From contig QNGA01000008.1 in assembly GCA_003298465.1 (NCBI GenBank), positions 189,204 through 253,203 of the forward strand: 64,000 bases of DNA. The letters are read 5' to 3'. Below the pieces are notes generated by a model that saw nothing but the letters and a program-made list of their open reading frames with translations, had not been told where the DNA came from and made no database searches. Shown here piece by piece: positions 1,300 to 45,951 of the stretch. A program made the translations under genes and the position numbers. Positions within the stretch are counted from its first letter, which is position 1, and every line of letters begins with the position of its first letter. The stretch comes from a halophilic archaeon. GTDB lineage: Archaea > Halobacteriota > Halobacteria > Halobacteriales > Haladaptataceae.

Positions 1300-1707
1300 A
1301 TGCCTCACCCCTCCGCTCTGCGAGCATGGCACTCATCGACGCCGCTTGAGCGAAAGCTGTATCGCGTGTTCCGACTGTCATCGGTCGGAAGCGCAGTGAC
1401 AGTGGCCGGCTTTATCGGGTACCTTAGCATCGGCAGTGCTCTCCATGTAACCGGTATCTATACGCCCCCATTCTCAGTGATGAGTTTCTCAGATCCGGTA
1501 TTCACCAGTCTGAGCTTTCTCGTCGGAGGACTCATCTGTCTGCTCTCTGGATCACTCATGGTTCTCACACTCCTTGTGAGCGTGAAGGATGCCAACGCCG
1601 AATTCGTCCTCTTGATGAGTCTCATCGCCTTTGGATTCGGCGCAGCCACGGTCCGAGTCACAGCTGGCCTAGTCCTGACATGGCTTGCTGGACTCGGACC
1701 GGTGTAG
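1300..1707 (+). CDS. Small polytopic membrane protein, unknown function
   Basis: 135-residue protein with about four hydrophobic segments (roughly residues 30-50, 65-85, 90-110 and 112-132) and no recognisable catalytic motif. It begins three bases after the glutamate dehydrogenase stop on the same strand, so it is probably cotranscribed. I do not recognise the family. Its length and hydrophobicity pattern fit a small haloarchaeal integral membrane protein. Confidence 0.7.
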   Translation: MPHPSALRAWHSSTPLERKLYRVFRLSSVGSAVTVAGFIGYLSIGSALHVTGIYTPPFSVMSFSDPVFTSLSFLVGGLICLLSGSLMVLTLLVSVKDANAEFVLLMSLIAFGFGAATVRVTAGLVLTWLAGLGPV

Positions 1708-14515: not shown

Positions 14516-14674
14516 ATCGACTGTATCCCTGAGACAGGATTCTGGCTATAGGCTCATTACTCTGTGCAGTCAAGTAGCGAACCCCCAGATGACTATCGTT
14601 ACTTTAAACGAGGAGTCCCAGACCAGCCGTCCACAGGATTAAATTACCTCAATATCGGGGAGTTCAGAACTCGA

Positions 14675-14749
14675 TGCTCCGTCGAGGATTTGAACCTCGG
14701 TCCCCGACGTGAGATGCCGAGATGATTGGCCGAGCTACACCAACGGAGC
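14675..14749 (-). tRNA. tRNA-Glu (anticodon CTC)
   Basis: On the minus strand a 75-nt cloverleaf folds: acceptor GCTCCGT with ACGGAGC, T-arm CGAGG-TTCAAAT-CCTCG, and an anticodon loop ATCTCAC giving CTC, which reads GAG (Glu). The anticodon stem has G-T pairs. The discriminator base is A and CCA is not encoded. Its 3' end faces the gene cluster at 13.4-14.5 kb, so it could have served as an integration site, but no partial duplicate was seen. Confidence 0.88.
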
Positions 14750-14929
14750 ACACTGACTTTGTTACCGGGTTCTATTAAACCTATCCACGAGCCACGCCTT
14801 AGTCGGTTAGGTGTCTGTTCAATACAGGCTTTTCAATATTCTTTGTGAGTCAGACTTGCCCTCCTGTCGCGAAGGAACCTTTTGACACGAAAATTATTGT
14901 AAATACAAGTGTTAATTTACCAAGCAGCG

Positions 14930-18594: not shown

Positions 18595-19305
18595 CTACTC
18601 TCCGGCAGCCGTGTCTGTGGTCGGATCACCGTTCGCATTCTCCGACAACCGTTCGCCGGGGATCTCGACATCGGCTTTCAGCACGAGACGGGTTTCCTGA
18701 TAGGTCAGGCCGTCTTTGGACCGCTGGCGTTTGGTCTTCCCGAGGCGGTTTTTCGAGAGTTCGTGCATTGCGTCCATCGTCCGGCGCGCAAGCTCCTGAG
18801 AGTATTTCTTGCTCACGCCGACTTCTTTGACGCGAATCCACTCGGCGAGATCCGACGCATCCAGGAACGCTCGAATCTCGCCGCTGCCACTTGACCATAA
18901 CTCATGGCGGCCGGTGTCGTCGCGTTCGCGCCATGCTTTCCCGGCGAGTTTGTCGGGCTTGCGATTCGACACTGACGCAAGCATCTCATCGTCGTAGCGC
19001 GCCAGCCGCTGGATCGGCAGGAGGTCTACCGTGGCGTGTGCGACTGCGCCGCCGCGATCGAGGGCATCGTCTTCGCCGGGCACACGGAAGTAGTGCTTGC
19101 CGTCGTCTTTCGTGATCCGTTCGAGCTTGTTGCCCTCGACGGTGACGCGGTCCTGGTCGACGTTGTCGGCGAGCAAGTGCGCGCCTTTCTCAAGTTCGCG
19201 CGCTTGGAGTTCTTCAATTCGGTTGTCGCGGGCGTTCGTCTTCCGGGCGAGCGCTTCTCTATGGGCTTCCGCGTTCTCTAACTCGTTCTCCAGCTTAGTC
19301 GGCAC
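18595..19305 (-). CDS. Coiled-coil replicon-associated protein
   Basis: 236 residues. Residues 1-45 form a charged coiled coil (ENELENAEAHREALARKTNA) followed by a middle domain (YFRVPGEDDALDRGGAVAHA) and a segment containing SGEIRAFLDASDLAEWIRVK. A basic stretch NRLGKTKRQRSKDG precedes the tail. It resembles in layout two other proteins in this window (21897-22865 and 28418-29284): coiled-coil N-terminus, DNA-binding-like C-terminal half, and a Thr/Gly/Glu-rich tail. Such proteins are common on haloarchaeal plasmids, where a role in replication or partition is plausible but unproven. Confidence 0.7.
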   Translation of the reverse strand: MPTKLENELENAEAHREALARKTNARDNRIEELQARELEKGAHLLADNVDQDRVTVEGNKLERITKDDGKHYFRVPGEDDALDRGGAVAHATVDLLPIQRLARYDDEMLASVSNRKPDKLAGKAWRERDDTGRHELWSSGSGEIRAFLDASDLAEWIRVKEVGVSKKYSQELARRTMDAMHELSKNRLGKTKRQRSKDGLTYQETRLVLKADVEIPGERLSENANGDPTTDTAAGE

Positions 19306-20230
19306 ACTCTTCCAATGCGTCGATGTGCTGCTAGAGATTAGTGGTCAATTTTCTTCTCTGTTCTAAGTCTCTGTGCACCGTATGATACGAGGGAGACGAC
19401 CTTCAATTATCTTTGAGACTCATGGGACCTAACCTCGAAAGGAGTTGCCACTATCGGGAGTGAGCACCGTCACGTAATATTCTGAGTTCATCTGATGGGG
19501 TTGGTAATCCATGGGCGGGTGAGAAGGGCCAATGTTAGTTTGATCTGCCACAGATTGAGATCATCCAACTCCCTATCTAGGACTACGGTTTCTAGTGAAC
19601 GAATCTAGGGTATCGGTGGGAACCGGGTAAGCTAATGGAGTGGTGGGGGTGAGTGACCTCCGTGACGGTGGCGGGCATCAGGGAGGCTGAACGACCAGCA
19701 GGGGCGTTCAGGGAAGTGTGGTCTATCCAACCACGGTTAGTCCAAAGTCGGCTACCACTATTGTTATGCGGTACCTGAAGTACAAGATAGAATAGATTGA
19801 GTGAGATAAAATGCAGGTGGATTGCCGGCTAGATGTGTCTATCGATCCACTTGCAGAACTCGTCAAAGTCATTTGCACCCGCTTGTTCAGCAATACTGCT
19901 GAGTGTCCCTGTAGCAAGTTCATCGTGCATGGGGACAATGACTACGGCAGAAATACTGGGTGACCAACGTTAGTTTGGGCTACTAACCTTGTTCTAGCAA
20001 CTTATCGCTAAGTTCCGAGTTCCGGGTGGCAATCTAGATCTCCATGGCGATGTTAACGCCAATGCGTTTTGATTGCTCACGTCAATCTGAGGGCCACATG
20101 CTGAATGCGTGCCTCATCTTTGGGAGTAAAGGGACAGACAAGGGGAATGCGTCGTCTCGATCTCGCTAGCCAAAGTTGGACGGAGTGGACACACTCCCCG
20201 ATATCACAAAGGATTTGATGGAGTAATTGG
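19306..20230. other. Gene-poor region with gene debris
   Basis: About 925 bases with no intact gene. It contains the HicA tail at 19829-19972 and a small hairpin near 19687-19711 (CTGAACG with CGTTCAG). Composition is mixed and repeated stops occur in all frames. It leads into the structured repeat array. Confidence 0.5.
19829..19972 (-). pseudogene. C-terminal remnant of a HicA-type toxin
   Basis: The minus strand reads VVIVPMHDELATGTLSSIAE, then QAGANDFDEFCKWIDRHI and a stop at 19829. This matches the C-terminal half of HicA mRNA interferases of toxin-antitoxin pairs. The N-terminal half with the catalytic His is absent and no HicB partner is seen, so the remnant is non-functional. Confidence 0.6.
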
Positions 20231-20241
20231 TTTGTGACGAC

Positions 20242-20374
20242 TGTCGGGCTACCCTGACTCAAGGACTACCCGACATGCCTCAGGATAGCGCACCCATTTG
20301 GAACGTGAAACACAATCCCACGTTCTATTATCCTGCCATAGTTGCCAAAGTTGGTTTACTCCCGAACCAACTTT
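20242..20374 (+). repeat. Structured repeat unit A
   Basis: Three hairpins in a row. H1 at 20242-20275 pairs TGTCGGG with CCCGACA. H2 pairs CAGGATA (20281) with TATCCTG (20329-20335) and, inside it, AACGTG with CACGTT. H3 at 20347-20374 has perfect 10-base arms AAAGTTGGTT and AACCAACTTT. Unit A shares H1 and the GTTGGTT...CTCCCGAACC primary sequence with unit C. Confidence 0.7.
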
Positions 20375-20518
20375 CCTCGAAACAGTGAAGACGAATAGTG
20401 ATTCATTCTCTCATATCTCTCGTCTCCTTGAGGAGCCTCACAACGGGGTTTAGATCGTCGCTATTGGAACCCTTTTCTTCGGAGGAAGATTTTAGTTGAT
20501 AAATGCTTAATGGACTAG

Positions 20519-20610
20519 TGTCGGGTATTCCTTTGACTATGGGGCTTACACCCGACAGCCATCAACGATTGGCGCTCGGGGCGTGGAGACTCCCTTCCAC
20601 GTTTCCTTTC
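20519..20610 (+). repeat. Structured repeat unit B (short)
   Basis: H1 at 20519-20557 pairs TGTCGGGT with ACCCGACA. H2 at 20582-20601 pairs CGTGGA with TCCACG and is followed by TTTCCTTTC. No third hairpin is evident, so the unit looks 3'-truncated or diverged. Confidence 0.65.
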
Positions 20611-20730
20611 TGTATCCAATATCGCTGTTAGCTAATCCTTCACCAAGAATAACGGACAGAATTGCATCCTCTTCTTTGGCATTATTTTCACCAATGGTAA
20701 AATTTAGCTTATAGTGATCTAGTACTCAGT

Positions 20731-21030
20731 TGTCGGGAGATCGCCGCACCATTGGCTTTCCCGACATAAGGACTATGTGCAGTTCGATAGAGCGTGGACT
20801 TGCCTACTCCACGTTTCCTTCCGTGTGTCATAGTTCGTGGGGGTTGGTTCCTCCCGAACCCTTCGCTAATGCACTCAAGGCGAAGAGCCACAAGCCGCTA
20901 GCGTCCTCTTGAGGAACACATGTCGAACACAGAGCGACAAGAAATAATCCCGCCCATCTCCCCTCCATGTCTCTCGTTTGTCTTTGGAGTTCATGTGACG
21001 GCAACGGTCGAGACTCCAGACTCACACGTC
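20731..21030 (+). repeat. Structured repeat unit C (full length)
   Basis: H1 at 20731-20766 pairs TGTCGGGA with TCCCGACA. H2 at 20793-20813 pairs CGTGGA with TCCACG, followed by TTTCCTTC. H3 at 20833-20859 pairs GTTCG with CGAAC plus a G-rich/C-rich inner stem. Downstream blocks shared with unit D include GGCGAAGAGCCAC, AGCGTCCT, GGAACA and ATAATCCCG. Confidence 0.7.
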
Positions 21031-21103
21031 TTTCTGACGGCACCCTCATTCCTTGAGTTGTCACCACACAAAGTTTGATAATTGGTTAGTCCCATAGTCC
21101 GGT

Positions 21104-21360
21104 TGTCGGGAGTAATGCCCCCGACACTGGTGCCGAGTATGTGTTCGAGGGACGTGTCACCTACCCACGTTTCCTTCTATGTGTCATGGTTCGGGAGGAT
21201 TGATCCCTCTCGAGCTTTCGTTGATGGACTCAGGGCGAAGAGCCACGAGTTCATTAGCGTCCTTTTGCGGAACATATGGCGGACGCATAGGGACATAAGA
21301 TAATCCCGTCCGTTTCCCATCCCTGCCTCTCGATTGGTCATTGAGTCCCTGTGATTCGCC
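21104..21360 (+). repeat. Structured repeat unit D (full length)
   Basis: H1 at 21104-21126 pairs TGTCGGG with CCCGACA around a short loop. H2 at 21152-21170 pairs ACGTG with CACGT, followed by TTCCTTC. H3 at 21189-21215 pairs GTTCG with CGAGC, and its inner pairs differ from unit C in a compensating way. It keeps the same downstream blocks as unit C at the same spacing. Confidence 0.7.
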
Positions 21361-21694
21361 CTGTAGACAAGTTTCGAAGATTGTGACGCCTCCATAAGGT
21401 CTCGGAGGGAAAGCTAATGTGAGACTATTTCAATCTTCGATCTCCTCAACTATCATCCTACTACCACTACCTGCAAGCGTTGAACCATGGGGTCCACCAA
21501 GGGTTGCGCCATGCTCTCCGCGACGTGTGGATGATCTTCAACTGCCAGGGGGCGTGAATTCATTTCACGGTCCTTTTCGCGACGCCATATGTAGTCACAG
21601 CGAAAGAGACTTTTCTAACACGCGTTCTCGGCGAGGCTATGCGCAGACAACGACTCATTTCGCTTTCCATTGGTTTCATGGTTGATGAGAAAGT

Positions 21695-21912
21695 GATTAC
21701 ACTGTCGTAATTAACCTTGGATGAGCGGTGTAATCAACTGAACCTCTTCTTTTCTCTTCTCAAAAACGAGAAGAGAACGAGAAGAGATTACACCACAGCG
21801 TAGTCGACCTTTCATTCCGCCATCAGAGGGGGCGCAAGTTGCGCCCCCTCCTCATCTGGAAGGGGCCAGAGATTACACCGAGACTATCGTCCCTGATTAC
21901 GACACCGTAATC
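21695..21912. repeat. Iteron-like GATTACACC repeats and hairpins
   Basis: GATTACAC occurs at 21695 and, with a final C, at 21786 and 21871. The inverted form GGTGTAATC lies at 21727, and GATTAC/GTAATC form a small palindrome at 21895-21912. The inverted pair at 21727 and 21786 closes a hairpin with pyrimidine- and purine-rich arms. A second hairpin with 12-base arms (GAGGGGGCGCAA and its complement) sits at 21826-21850. The cluster lies at the 3' end of a replicon-type operon, and the last palindrome overlaps its stop codon. A replication origin or control site is plausible. Confidence 0.55.
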
Positions 21913-22865
21913 TCTCCGTCAACCGAATCGTTCTCGTCGGACGTGACCGCCGAGGCAGACGAGAGGGCGTCCATCTCGACGTTCACGTTCTCCGCAGGTG
22001 CATCGTCGTCCGTTGACTCTTCTTCGTCCTCGTCGCTTTGAGCGTCGTCATTCATGCTGGCGGCTTGCTGCATCTGCTCTGCAAAGAACGACTCCCACTC
22101 GTCTTGGTCGGCAACGAGCGTGTTCCGCCTATTGCCACGCTTCAACGTGATTAGATTGCTGTCGTCCTCAGGATGAGGATCATCGTTTTGTCCTGTGCCT
22201 TTTGCCACGAACTCCATGACGCGACGGACTGTGTTTGGATCGGTCGGGCAATCGTTGTCATCGAGAATCTGTTTGACAAGCCACGACGGCAGACGCAACT
22301 TCCCGTGTCCGGGCCGCGAACACTCGTGGAACGCGGCCCAAACGTGGGTGGCGCGCTCTTTGTTCTCCGAGAGGTCGGCGGGAGCATCGGCTTTTCGCGC
22401 GGCATTGTCCCGCTGAATCGGCAACTGGTTCTCCGTGCCCTCGTGGTCGAGCACGTCGTCAACGTCGATCTCGCCCCGCTCGAGATCTTCGATGCGACTT
22501 TTGGTGTCCTTGATCGACCTGTGGGCCTTATCGATGAGTTTGCCGACGGGCGTCGATTCAATCCAGAGATTCGTCAGTTGGTTCTTGTTATCCTCTCGGA
22601 ACTCGATCGTCGGCTGATCTGCTATGCTCTGTTCTACGTCGGCAATCTGGTCACGCAGTTTTTCCTTCGTTTTCCGCTCGTCTTCGATACTCTCCTCTAA
22701 CTCTTTGATTTGCTCTGCTTTGCGTTCGTTCTCTTCGCGGAGAGCAGCGTTTGCTTGCCGAAGGTCGGCCACTTCGTCACGAAGGGTGGCTATTTCGTCA
22801 CGGAGTTCGGCGACCGCTGTTGTACACTCGCATGTCGGCGTTTTTGTCGAGTTCGTTGAGCTCAT
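21897..22865 (-). CDS. Coiled-coil protein with winged-helix-like middle, replicon-associated
   Basis: 322 residues. A Cys pair (TCECTTA) opens the protein, then a long heptad coiled coil spans about residues 17-85 (RDEIATLRDEVADLRQANAA). The middle has a putative DNA-binding segment, ATHVWAAFHECSRPGHGKLR to DPNTVRRVMEFVAK, which reads like a winged helix. The tail is very acidic. Its ATG overlaps the stop of the HTH gene upstream, so the two form an operon. The repeats at 21695-21912 touch its 3' end. A role in plasmid replication or partition is inferred from layout only. Confidence 0.75.
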   Translation of the reverse strand: MSSTNSTKTPTCECTTAVAELRDEIATLRDEVADLRQANAALREENERKAEQIKELEESIEDERKTKEKLRDQIADVEQSIADQPTIEFREDNKNQLTNLWIESTPVGKLIDKAHRSIKDTKSRIEDLERGEIDVDDVLDHEGTENQLPIQRDNAARKADAPADLSENKERATHVWAAFHECSRPGHGKLRLPSWLVKQILDDNDCPTDPNTVRRVMEFVAKGTGQNDDPHPEDDSNLITLKRGNRRNTLVADQDEWESFFAEQMQQAASMNDDAQSDEDEEESTDDDAPAENVNVEMDALSSASAVTSDENDSVDGEITVS

Positions 22866-42126: not shown

Positions 42127-45100
42127 TTACTTGCCAAACAGTCCACTCAGTCCCTCTTCAACCGACTCTTCATCATCGATTTCTTCGGCGCTCTGCACTG
42201 GCTCGCGTATCACATCCTCAGTCTGCGTTTCAGTCGCTGTCTCGTCCTGTTCGTCGGCACTCACGGACGAGTCCCCGTCATTGTCCACCAGATCGGTTAA
42301 CGGTGTCTGCGTGTCGCCTTCGTACAGTCGGATGTCCATCGGCGTCTGTGTCTCCGGCGGCACCACGATCACGTCCCACTCCACCTCGCTCAGGTCGCCG
42401 TCCATCTCATACTCCGGAATGACTGGCGGCTTGATGTTCCGCTCGCCACCGCTCGGGTACGCACTCGCGTCAGTAAAGATGTCTGCTGCCGTCTCAAAGC
42501 GCGCGTGGACAGTGCCGTCCCCGTCTCGAAGCTCATACTCGCCGGTCTGCTCGTCGTACACCCAAATGTTCTCCCGACTGCCCGGTCGGGTCATCGCTTC
42601 GTCGTCAATCCTGAGCGTCTGGGTGTCCGTGTAGAACCGGCGCTCGGTTGTGGCGGGGTGACTGCTCCGACAGCAAAACGGCTCCGCTGCCACCGTCTCA
42701 TACACCTTCTCGGCAACGTCCTCACGGGCGAAGAACAAGCAGCGATGGCCTGCGTTGTGCGCTTGCGCGAGATTCTTCACGGTCTGGGACGGCTGCGTAC
42801 TGCCGGTGGTGTGTTCACTCTCGATATAGGCGTCACTCGTCCCTGCAAGGCGATTCAACAGCGCGTGATCCTCACGGTAGCTGTTGACCTTGTCGGCTAT
42901 CGTCTCGGGACCATCGTCCGGTCCAATCGCAAGTACATCGTCCAGTCGTGCGAGGCCGTCGGGCATGGCGTCGCCAGTCTGCTCGGGGATCTCAAAGATG
43001 AACCCGAGTTGCGTCATCGGGATGTAGGCGTCGGCCATCGGTGCCCAGTGCTCGGCGTTGCCGTCGTTCTCACTGTCACCGAGGTTTAGGAACCCAGTAT
43101 CCAGTGGCTTGACCTGCATTTCGGCCCCGACTTCGCGTTTGTCGATGTACGGGTCTGGGATCTCCTGTAAGACTTTCCGCCATGCTTTCCCTTCGTCAGC
43201 CACGTTGTCACCCGGCAGATACCGATTCAGCCGGTCCACACAGTCAGCCACTGGAATCCACCCACCGGGATGACCGTGGCGGATCGTCTCGTCATAGACG
43301 GCTTTCAGCGCCTGATTGCGCCACGCCTTCTCGCTCATCTCGCCACTAGCGGGCGACGGGGCTGCTGGTGACTCGTCCTGCTGACCGTTATAGAAGTGCG
43401 AGACCTCCTGCTGCTCTTCGGCAGTGAGTTGCGTCGTTCCGTACTCCGCGAGCGACGTCCGTTTGAGCGCGTCCAGTTCCGCGTCGGTGCGACCGGGCTG
43501 GCCGGTCTGCTCGGACCGTACTTCGCCGACCGGCGGGAACGCTTGGACCTTGTAGGAGTGGGTGAGTTGGTCGTCGTCGTCCAGCGTCCGCATGAAGAAG
43601 GTGTACGGACTCATGTTCATCAGGTCGTCCCACTCGATATCCCGACTGTGCTGCTTGGCGATCAAGCGGGCGTCTTCGTCCCCACCGGGGTTGTAGGAGA
43701 TGAACGTCCGGCACTGGTTTGCAATCGCCTTCTCAACCTTCTTCGGCAACTGATTCGACGGATTCTGGCACGCCAGCGTGAGGCAGAAGTCGAACGCACG
43801 GGCTTCCGAGAGGATCTTGTGGATGTTCGACTCTTCGGTGACGATGGAGTCGAACTCGTCACAGATCACGTAGAACGGTGGGTTGTCGTCGGCTTCCCGA
43901 ATGGCAACCCACGCGCGACGAATGAGCGCCGTTGCGAACAGTCGTTTCTCGGTCTCCCCCGATGACGGATCGTTCCGAACAACCACGATCTTCCCGTCTT
44001 CGACGGCCTCCTGGATCGACACCGTGCTATCCGGGTTGCTAATCAGGTTCCGCACGGCGTCGTTCTCAATCCACTGGCTGAAGCGTCCAGCGAGCGGTTC
44101 GAGGTCGCTATCCTCTTTCTCGGCAATGCGTTTGGCCGACTCCCGGATGAAGTGGATACGTTCTTCATCCATCCAGTTGTGGAATTTGTCGAGATTGTCG
44201 CTGTCTGCAACACAGCACGCGAGATCGAGCAGCGTGCAATCCCGCCCGGACTTCGCCATCCCTCGGATGAGCGTCCGCGTCACCCGATTCATCAACGCAC
44301 CCCAATAGTTGTCGTCACCGCCCGCTTGGGCCGCAATCGCCACCACGTCGTCGGCCAGCGCCTCGACAGCGCTCGCGAACGCTCGACTATCCGGCGGCGC
44401 ATTGCTTGGCACTTCCATGAAGTTGAACGTCACTTGCTCGTCGTACTCGTCGGTGAGGTCGACGAACACCAAATCGTCCTCGCGGTCTTCGGGCACCTCA
44501 CGAAGGAACTCGTCGGCATCCTTGCCTTTCGGGTCGAAGATGAGACAACCATGGCCCCGATTCATGATCTGGCTTGCCTGATTCACCAAGAATGTCGTCT
44601 TGCCCATCCCGGTCCCGCCGCCGACAAATTGGTGGATATTCAGGATCTCCGGATCAACGCCCGCCTCAATCCCGTTCTTCTTCCCTCGACCATACCAGTA
44701 CGGCCGCTCGGGATTGTCTTCCGAAAGCATGGCGAGCTGTATCGCGCCAGGGTCACTCGTTGCACGTTCGAGGCCGTGGGCGTCGTAGTCGAAGCGCGGC
44801 GTCCGTGGCGGAATGCCGCGTCCGGACTTCGACATCGTGTACTCGATCTCTTGGGTGTTGAGGTCTGTCGGAACGTGACAGATGCCGGTGAGCGTGTCCG
44901 TCGCGAACGTAATCCCTTGATTGGTGCCTGTCCACTCGCGGCCCGCCATCGACTCCAGAAACCCATCTAGCTTCTTTTGCTTGAAGAACTTGGGCGTAAA
45001 CCCTTGCTCGTAGCTTGAATCGTAGAATTTCCGGTACATCCCCGCCGTCTCCTCGACGCGTGAGACGGCTTCCTCTCTGTCGTCAGAGACGGCGACCACG

Positions 45101-45951
45101 CGAATATCGACGTGATAGCCCTTCTTCCCGCGTTGATTCGCAACGATGTTCGCGGCTTTCGAGTTGCTGGCTTCCTCGCGATACTTCGTGAAGTTCTGCT
45201 GTTCGTCTGAGTCAACGCCTTCGAGCTTCCCGCCTGTGATAGCAGAGGCCGTCTCCTCCAGCACTGCACCTGCATCAAAGCCGCTCTTGGACTCCTTGAG
45301 GCGGCGTACCGTTTTCCCGATGCCGTGGTACCAATTCCGCCGGTCCCACGTCGCATTCGAGATGGCGGGTTTGATCATGATCTGGACCATCACGTCCGCG
45401 TTCGGACGATGGGGCGCACCGACCATCTCGCTCGTAATGCTGTCGTAGGGATCGGTCTCGAAGTGATCGGGATCGAGCTTGAAGTGCTTGATCGGTAAGA
45501 ACGAATCATCCTGTCGGAGCCTCAGACGGGCGGCAGCGACGTACTGGCCGGCGGCCATATCCAAGAACTCGGGTTCGATCTCAACGATGTCGCTGTCCCC
45601 GTAGTACGTCTTCAGTTGCCGGTCCAGCCGGTCGTGCATGCCATCGTCACCGGGCGCGAACCGGTACTGCAAGATCTCCTCATCGTCGTCATAGACGAGT
45701 TCGAACGCACTCCCCGGCGTCACATTCCGCTTGCGTACTCGGCCGTCTAACCGAACATCGTGGAGCGAACTGAGTAGTTGCATCCCGCGTTGGAGGCCGC
45801 CTTCGTCCTTGTACGGGCGAATGCCGATGAGTGCCGATTGGTCGCGCGCATGGTCGTAGAGGTCGGTCACGAGGTCGTCGTTGACTTGCCGAACGGCGGG
45901 GCTGCCCTGTCCGCGCACGTTCTCGTAGACGCTTTCGAAAAAGCCCGTCAT
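42127..45951 (-). CDS. VirD4/HerA-like transfer ATPase
   Basis: 1274 residues, last gene of the transfer-type operon. A large N-terminal region (1-430) has no obvious membrane helix. Walker A is GGGTGMGKTTFLVNQ (about residue 448), followed by CLIFDPKGKDADEFL; Walker B is FYVICDEFDSIVTEE (about 692); and LTLACQNPSNQLPKKVEKAI resembles motif III of coupling ATPases. A 500-residue C-terminal extension includes an HTH-like stretch and an acidic tail ending in LSGLFGK. By context it would be a coupling or DNA-pumping ATPase at the membrane. It overlaps the small membrane gene by four bases. Confidence 0.85.
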   Translation of the reverse strand: MTGFFESVYENVRGQGSPAVRQVNDDLVTDLYDHARDQSALIGIRPYKDEGGLQRGMQLLSSLHDVRLDGRVRKRNVTPGSAFELVYDDDEEILQYRFAPGDDGMHDRLDRQLKTYYGDSDIVEIEPEFLDMAAGQYVAAARLRLRQDDSFLPIKHFKLDPDHFETDPYDSITSEMVGAPHRPNADVMVQIMIKPAISNATWDRRNWYHGIGKTVRRLKESKSGFDAGAVLEETASAITGGKLEGVDSDEQQNFTKYREEASNSKAANIVANQRGKKGYHVDIRVVAVSDDREEAVSRVEETAGMYRKFYDSSYEQGFTPKFFKQKKLDGFLESMAGREWTGTNQGITFATDTLTGICHVPTDLNTQEIEYTMSKSGRGIPPRTPRFDYDAHGLERATSDPGAIQLAMLSEDNPERPYWYGRGKKNGIEAGVDPEILNIHQFVGGGTGMGKTTFLVNQASQIMNRGHGCLIFDPKGKDADEFLREVPEDREDDLVFVDLTDEYDEQVTFNFMEVPSNAPPDSRAFASAVEALADDVVAIAAQAGGDDNYWGALMNRVTRTLIRGMAKSGRDCTLLDLACCVADSDNLDKFHNWMDEERIHFIRESAKRIAEKEDSDLEPLAGRFSQWIENDAVRNLISNPDSTVSIQEAVEDGKIVVVRNDPSSGETEKRLFATALIRRAWVAIREADDNPPFYVICDEFDSIVTEESNIHKILSEARAFDFCLTLACQNPSNQLPKKVEKAIANQCRTFISYNPGGDEDARLIAKQHSRDIEWDDLMNMSPYTFFMRTLDDDDQLTHSYKVQAFPPVGEVRSEQTGQPGRTDAELDALKRTSLAEYGTTQLTAEEQQEVSHFYNGQQDESPAAPSPASGEMSEKAWRNQALKAVYDETIRHGHPGGWIPVADCVDRLNRYLPGDNVADEGKAWRKVLQEIPDPYIDKREVGAEMQVKPLDTGFLNLGDSENDGNAEHWAPMADAYIPMTQLGFIFEIPEQTGDAMPDGLARLDDVLAIGPDDGPETIADKVNSYREDHALLNRLAGTSDAYIESEHTTGSTQPSQTVKNLAQAHNAGHRCLFFAREDVAEKVYETVAAEPFCCRSSHPATTERRFYTDTQTLRIDDEAMTRPGSRENIWVYDEQTGEYELRDGDGTVHARFETAADIFTDASAYPSGGERNIKPPVIPEYEMDGDLSEVEWDVIVVPPETQTPMDIRLYEGDTQTPLTDLVDNDGDSSVSADEQDETATETQTEDVIREPVQSAEEIDDEESVEEGLSGLFGK

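Follow-up and report, generated by a model that had tools for sequence, protein, structure and literature searches.

Four repeats in a 64-kb stretch of haloarchaeal DNA (the window) raise the question of what such an array is for: a family of structured RNAs, repeated DNA signals, a mobile repeat, or the remains of genes. The original prediction, made from the sequence alone, took them for a plus-strand RNA family with compensatory base changes.

Tandem hairpin units in the window

The motif TGTCGGG..CCCGACA was detected at 4 sites in the window, all inside the array at 20242-21126, and at none in 100 dinucleotide shuffles, confirming the hairpins (P1) predicted at the starts of units A to D as the only such sites. 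A second hairpin (P3) of the CGTG/CACG type was located 3′ of every P1 in A-D, where an ACGTG/CACGT type had been predicted (Table 1). The sequence CCACGTTTCCTTC was exact in C and D and had one mismatch in B; its counterpart in A was CACGTTCTATT. A third hairpin, said to be present in A, C and D and absent from B, was upheld by comparison with shuffles (p = 0.002, 0.024 and 0.002 for A, C and D, respectively); for B, folding was not beyond shuffles (p = 0.30).

A possible degenerate unit, E, was found in the same gene-poor stretch and on the same strand. It scored 15.8 bits (E = 0.015) with covariance model R1 (see below), was not reported by model R2 at E up to 5, and overlaps an 88-codon ORF. 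The array is counted as four, perhaps five, copies, E being the possible fifth.

Table 1. Units of the array and TATA-like words upstream of them
Feature	Position	Strand	P1	P3	Third hairpin	Remarks
TATA-like TTTG	20214..20217	+				28 nt upstream of P1 of A
Unit A	20242..20518	+	20242-20275	20301-20325	20347-20374	T stretch plus C at 20473
TATA-like TTTA	20491..20494	+				28 nt upstream of P1 of B
Unit B	20519..20730	+	20519-20557	20579-20604	none significant	T stretch plus C at 20685
TATA-like TTTA	20703..20706	+				28 nt upstream of P1 of C
Unit C	20731..21103	+	20731-20766	20790-20816	~20833-20859	CCTAC in P3 loop
TATA-like TTTG	21074..21077	+				30 nt upstream of P1 of D
Unit D	21104..21380 (nominal 3′ limit)	+	21104-21126	21150-21172	~21188-21216	CACCTAC in P3 loop
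Possible degenerate unit E	21498..21592	+	GGTTGCG/CGCGACG	GGCGTGA/TCACGGT		upstream region without TTTR

Across A-D, the P1 stem was identical in 84/84 compared letters and P3 in 73/84 (87%); the trimmed P1 loop retained 10/54 (19%) and the linker 33/132 (25%). The four units look like old duplicates whose stems are maintained by selection, the remainder being saturated. No pair among A-D had changed on both sides, P1 being invariant and three P3 pairs varying on one side only, and "compensatory base changes" was therefore too strong a term for the window units. The changes ascribed to the third hairpins of C and D (paired by hand) were indeed one-sided differences of wobble type, but one pair was gained, one was lost and none was compensated on both sides. 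This hairpin is outside the common core of the family.

When C and D were aligned, the 5′ 140 nt were structured beyond column shuffles (z = -4.2 on the plus and -2.7 on the minus strand) and the 3′ half was not. The full-length slice gave a weak signal (z = -1.76 plus, -1.59 minus), and a slice lacking P1, in which the aligner had P3 out of register, gave none (z = -0.22). The 5′ parts of A-D folded better on the plus than on the minus strand in 3 of 4 units, and unit D folded no better than shuffles. For kissing between P1 loops in A-D, 2 of 10 combinations fell below p 0.03, uncorrected. An outer helix around P3, seen by eye, was dropped because shuffles equalled it (combined z = -0.05).

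Relatives on Haladaptatus plasmids

Two covariance models were used, R1 from A-D, with the P1 loops trimmed to nine letters, and R2 from A-D plus seven of the first eight Haladaptatus units. The search set was 13 Haladaptatus plasmids of four species. Run as a single large batch, R1 gave no match in 15 plasmids; in batches of less than 2 Mb it matched Haladaptatus plasmids, mostly weakly, and 12 plasmids of other genera gave one match of 11.9 bits. Minus-strand R1 matches in the window reflect the palindrome. The three best R1 matches outside the window (L052-L054) proved to be a different hairpin and were rejected as units. At these loci (~1501-1580, minus strand), a terminator-like GTGCCGGGTG../..CACCCGGC hairpin with similar flanks is found in three Haladaptatus species. 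Real tandem sets were reached from weaker matches, which scored 15.7 and 15.1 bits.

The first eight relatives were obtained from R1 matches, exact P1 sites, reading and a stem descriptor. They included three tandem units between annotated genes on H. salinisoli plasmid unnamed6, two tandem units on H. halobius plasmid unnamed2, where the flanking annotated genes leave a gap of 582 bp, two units on H. caseinilyticus plasmid unnamed6 and one on H. halobius plasmid unnamed3. Exact P1 sites numbered 7 in the 13 plasmids (reversed-pattern control, 0). Four of them were units; L050 was rejected as lying inside a lipoprotein-like coding sequence, and L065 and L066 as being without P3. The latter two are similar loci on plasmids of two species, in which (~1501-1546) the TGTCGGG/CCCGACA hairpin is preceded by a GGGGGC../..GCCCCC-type hairpin.

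With R2, 15 further units were accepted, the best four having E values of 3e-7 to 3e-6 per record. The accepted relatives total 23 units, several in tandem; 11 of the 13 Haladaptatus plasmids scanned with this model carry at least one. The check suggested with the original prediction, a covariance model built from A-D, had led to relatives with these two stems. From 22 places extracted after R2, seven were dropped before counting: N16-N21, which had no P1-P3 layout, and N22, a real-looking unit with a wrongly set P1 start. N16 was the best non-unit match in the Haladaptatus plasmids (20.8 bits with R2). Because non-units reach this score, N11-N13 (20.1-20.9 bits, level with N16) and N14 and N15 (17.9 and 17.8 bits, kept although below it) were accepted for their layout, the motif in the loop, a box upstream or a tandem position, not for their score. 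On five plasmids, from Halorussus, Natrinema, Halalkalicoccus, Halobacterium and Halomarina, R2 scores did not exceed 15.8 bits.

When one tandem pair was used as a blastn query, it matched 7 records, every one from Haladaptatus, including NZ_CP085341 and NZ_CP085343, which were outside the model searches; no listed gene lay beneath the best place in each record, the gene table being incomplete. With the array itself as query, blastn searches of plasmids and phages gave nothing for the units, only the neighbouring operon, a hicA remnant and short chance matches. Exact motif scans of viral and genome contigs gave scattered matches or none, and these were rejected; L001 and L002 were inside coding sequence, and four genome-contig matches were actinobacterial. 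R1 reached at most 13 bits on 33 motif-scan and plasmid loci, and R2 at most 19.4 bits on 17 viral loci. Within the records searched, the family appears so far confined to Haladaptatus plasmids and this window.

Rfam 15 gave 0 matches in the whole window at the gathering cut-off and, at E up to 1 in 19400-22000, STnc320 alone, below gathering and outside the units. In eight Haladaptatus loci, it gave sot0042 alone, in L064 away from the units. This RNA (RF02656; 382-556, above gathering) is found where an annotated transposase ends, and unit H1 follows ~950 nt further on.

Window units and relatives differ in spacing. P1 and P3 are 0-3 nt apart or have one letter in common in the relatives, and are separated by a linker of 22-26 nt in the window. 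This linker explains why A, B and C score only 9.5-13.2 bits, at noise level, with R2 (D, 19.1 bits); two non-array places, at 15.8 and 14.9 bits, exceed A-C. In H1, S4 and N6, one A is common to P1 and P3, so that both outer pairs cannot form together. Window units and relatives were joined as one family on the basis of the same stem letters, order and strand, and of CCTAC in the P3 loop of C and D. Of the 27 units with a readable loop, 10 carry this motif, namely C, D and 8 relatives; the count has no shuffle control. The window array is best called a subfamily.

Covariation, strand and upstream signals

The 28 units together have 392 stem cells, of which 95.9% were standard pairs, compared with 35.2-50.0% when the stems were slid. 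Two-sided changes occupied 12 cells against a shuffled mean of 3.6 (0/500 as high), and none of the 500 shuffles reached the covariation score. Such changes fell in 4 pairs, a number that was not significant (74/500 shuffles). P1 pair 6 was G-C in 20 units, A-U in 4, G-U in 2 and C-G in 1, and P3 pair 7 was G-C in 21 and A-U in 5. In the 15 new units alone, covariation was significant in P3 (p = 0.0035) and not in P1 (p = 0.28 paired, 0.08 two-sided). Once relatives were added, the units thus showed the conserved, covarying secondary structure expected of a small non-coding RNA gene. This evidence is good, not conclusive, since the unit searches favour stems and the shuffle tests ignore kinship.

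The stems contained 39 G.T cells and 6 A.C cells (binomial p = 5e-7, a guide only, because stem cells are not independent), so that pairing is possible in 95.9% of the cells as read on the given strand, against 87.5% on the opposite one. Such an excess favours a plus-strand RNA and, with the two-sided changes, supports the predicted plus-strand family. The wobble argument itself, first drawn from the window units, holds over the 28 units; for A-D alone the counts were 4 and 1 (p = 0.38). Whole-unit folding against shuffles gave a mean z of -2.5 on the plus and -2.0 on the minus strand, the plus strand being better in 21 of 27 units; unit D again did no better than shuffles.

Palindromes could also act at the DNA level without any RNA, either as binding sites of a protein for plasmid partition or replication or by hairpin extrusion. 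They are identical on either strand, the letter-for-letter constancy of P1 in A-D is like that of a protein site, and the array adjoins plasmid replicon-like genes. However, the 8-letter P1 arms are 7-39 nt apart, which is odd for a dimer site, P1 letters vary among the relatives and do so in part by two-sided changes, and the surplus of G.T over A.C runs against a DNA element. We consider this account unlikely.

A TATA box lies about 27 nt upstream of the transcription start. In A-D, TTTR at -28/-30 was the sole word of 1792 to recur in this manner on the plus strand, there being none on the minus strand, and 0 of 60 random anchor sets behaved likewise; an earlier p of 5e-6 for TTTR is not a fair value because the criterion was chosen with TTTR already in view. 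The signal was not carried over to the relatives, in which a listed TATA-like word occurred at -31 to -26 in 1 of 15 new units. Upstream of the Haladaptatus units, TGCCG at -45 was found in 7 of 23 (shuffle maximum, 4), CCAAA at -36 in 5 of 23 and AAGTGA at -25 in 5 of 23; kinship accounts for part of these fixed boxes. Boxes and TTTR are read, short of proof, as putative promoter regions of differing type. For haloarchaea, PMC4983044 gives TTWT as the TATA box and CGAAA as the BRE. At the other end, A and B have T stretches followed by a C near the unit ends, a run of four T is missing from C, and the one in D, at 21263, has no C after it; Haloferax intergenic sites are described in PMC7237163 as T stretches with termination at a C.

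The upstream boxes bear on whether the units are a REP-like or other non-autonomous mobile repeat that a hairpin-acting transposase would move and that is kept as sequence and not as an RNA gene. Their dispersal over many plasmids in tandem arrays would suit such a repeat, as would a transposase close to H1 and H2, but boxes at fixed distance and strand-biased wobble pairs would not, and this origin also seems unlikely.

Neighbourhood, function and comparison with known systems

The units combine directly observed common stems, covariation, wobble strand bias and tandem layout, and we lean, modestly, to the reading that they are tandem plus-strand small non-coding RNA genes with a two-stem fold, duplicating on Haladaptatus plasmids. 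Transcription would begin with the first base of P1 or close to it, and the RNA would fold into the TGTCGGG-type P1 stem with its variable loop and then the RRCGTGG/CCACGTT stem of P3, whose loop is often CU-rich (ACACCTACCTCTATCACCT as DNA in unit N2) and presumably resembles the 16S rRNA 3′ end. Copies would arise by tandem duplication, and they are present on several Haladaptatus plasmids. With less weight, the constant stems may be a scaffold for a common protein, and the loops may base-pair in trans with purine-rich mRNA stretches, which is our preferred mechanism; the array would then be a set of sibling regulatory RNAs. As far as can be judged from DNA, the units are probably plasmid small RNAs that act as base-pairing regulators. 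It is quite unlikely that they are instead guide-like RNAs, whose two-stem scaffold would be bound by one Haladaptatus protein, whose variable P1 loop would give specificity, and which coexisting megaplasmids would direct at one another or at invaders.

Both neighbours of the array are antisense to the units, as are the flanking genes in two annotated Haladaptatus stretches, in which the units are intergenic. This orientation and the plasmid location would fit a special case of the RNA reading, a copy-control or incompatibility RNA (antisense or decoy) acting on the replication genes of its own plasmid. The longest antisense matches of P1 loops to window genes, however, are just 9-11 nt, a figure without control, and several differing units per plasmid and per strain do not suggest a single replicon-specific control. 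We regard it as very doubtful.

Several features surround the array. On one side, a 236-residue gene (18595-19305) matches the C-terminal part of ~300-residue plasmid proteins and may be a truncated copy of a gene of replicon type; the best matches of its protein are to proteins of Haladaptatus plasmids, with identities of up to 80%, and the neighbour proteins had no relatives in viral contigs. A hicA-type toxin gene remnant lies at 19842-19912 (minus strand), its DNA being 80-81% identical to hicA on two haloarchaeal plasmids. Following a 322-residue gene, the non-coding region 21694-21915 contains GTGTAATC-type inverted repeats, is conserved on Haladaptatus plasmids and folds far beyond shuffles on both strands (z about -7); it is possibly an origin or partition site. 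Elsewhere in the window, a 1274-residue protein (42127-45951) with a TrwB-type coupling domain suggests a conjugative or mobile element, and a tRNA-Glu (ctc) gene occupies 14673-14750, several plasmid matches stopping at 14750.

The gene desert of the original prediction stood in that 19305-21897 contains no supportable gene, the ten array frames being without Pfam match, but the 88-codon ORF (21419-21685) lies within it. Descent from a decayed protein gene or insertion sequence is highly improbable: C and D share 77% of their letters over 198 nt, the unstructured part included, but variable loop length puts the P1 arms in different frames between units, the best-kept frame has preserved 19 of 32 residues where the DNA is 73% identical, two frames gave only unrelated matches by tblastn, and neither a homologous protein aligning across a unit nor an excess of silent changes was found.

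The units look like an undescribed small structured RNA gene, in agreement with the statement that no described element matches them; Rfam 15 had no unit match, and a limited search of open papers found none on such an element. To our knowledge, little has been described of functional RNAs other than CRISPR RNAs on archaeal plasmids, to which a structured family with covariation and tandem-gene layout is added here. Constant stems, very variable loops and several copies per plasmid make redundancy, target divergence and plasmid-to-plasmid control testable as sibling-RNA questions in cultured, plasmid-sequenced Haladaptatus strains.

Among known systems, the intergenic sRNAs of Haloferax volcanii are likewise haloarchaeal and intergenic. 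In the available text of PMC4983044, nearly all known non-coding RNA genes of that species have a clear promoter, and the description includes no tandem family with common stems; the sequence comparison of those sRNAs with the present units went through Rfam. Bacterial sibling small RNAs, as presented in PMC4211561, are alike in that several related small RNA genes occur per organism, whereas the window units are archaeal, plasmid-borne and known from DNA alone, with constant stems and diverged loops. Type III toxin-antitoxin repeat RNAs are also tandem structured RNA units on plasmids, but the units here are diverged and lie 155-452 nt from one another, and no plus-strand toxin gene was identified after the window array. 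REP/BIME-type repeats are similar as dispersed intergenic palindromes; the present units differ from them in the strand bias of their wobble pairs and in having boxes at a set distance upstream.
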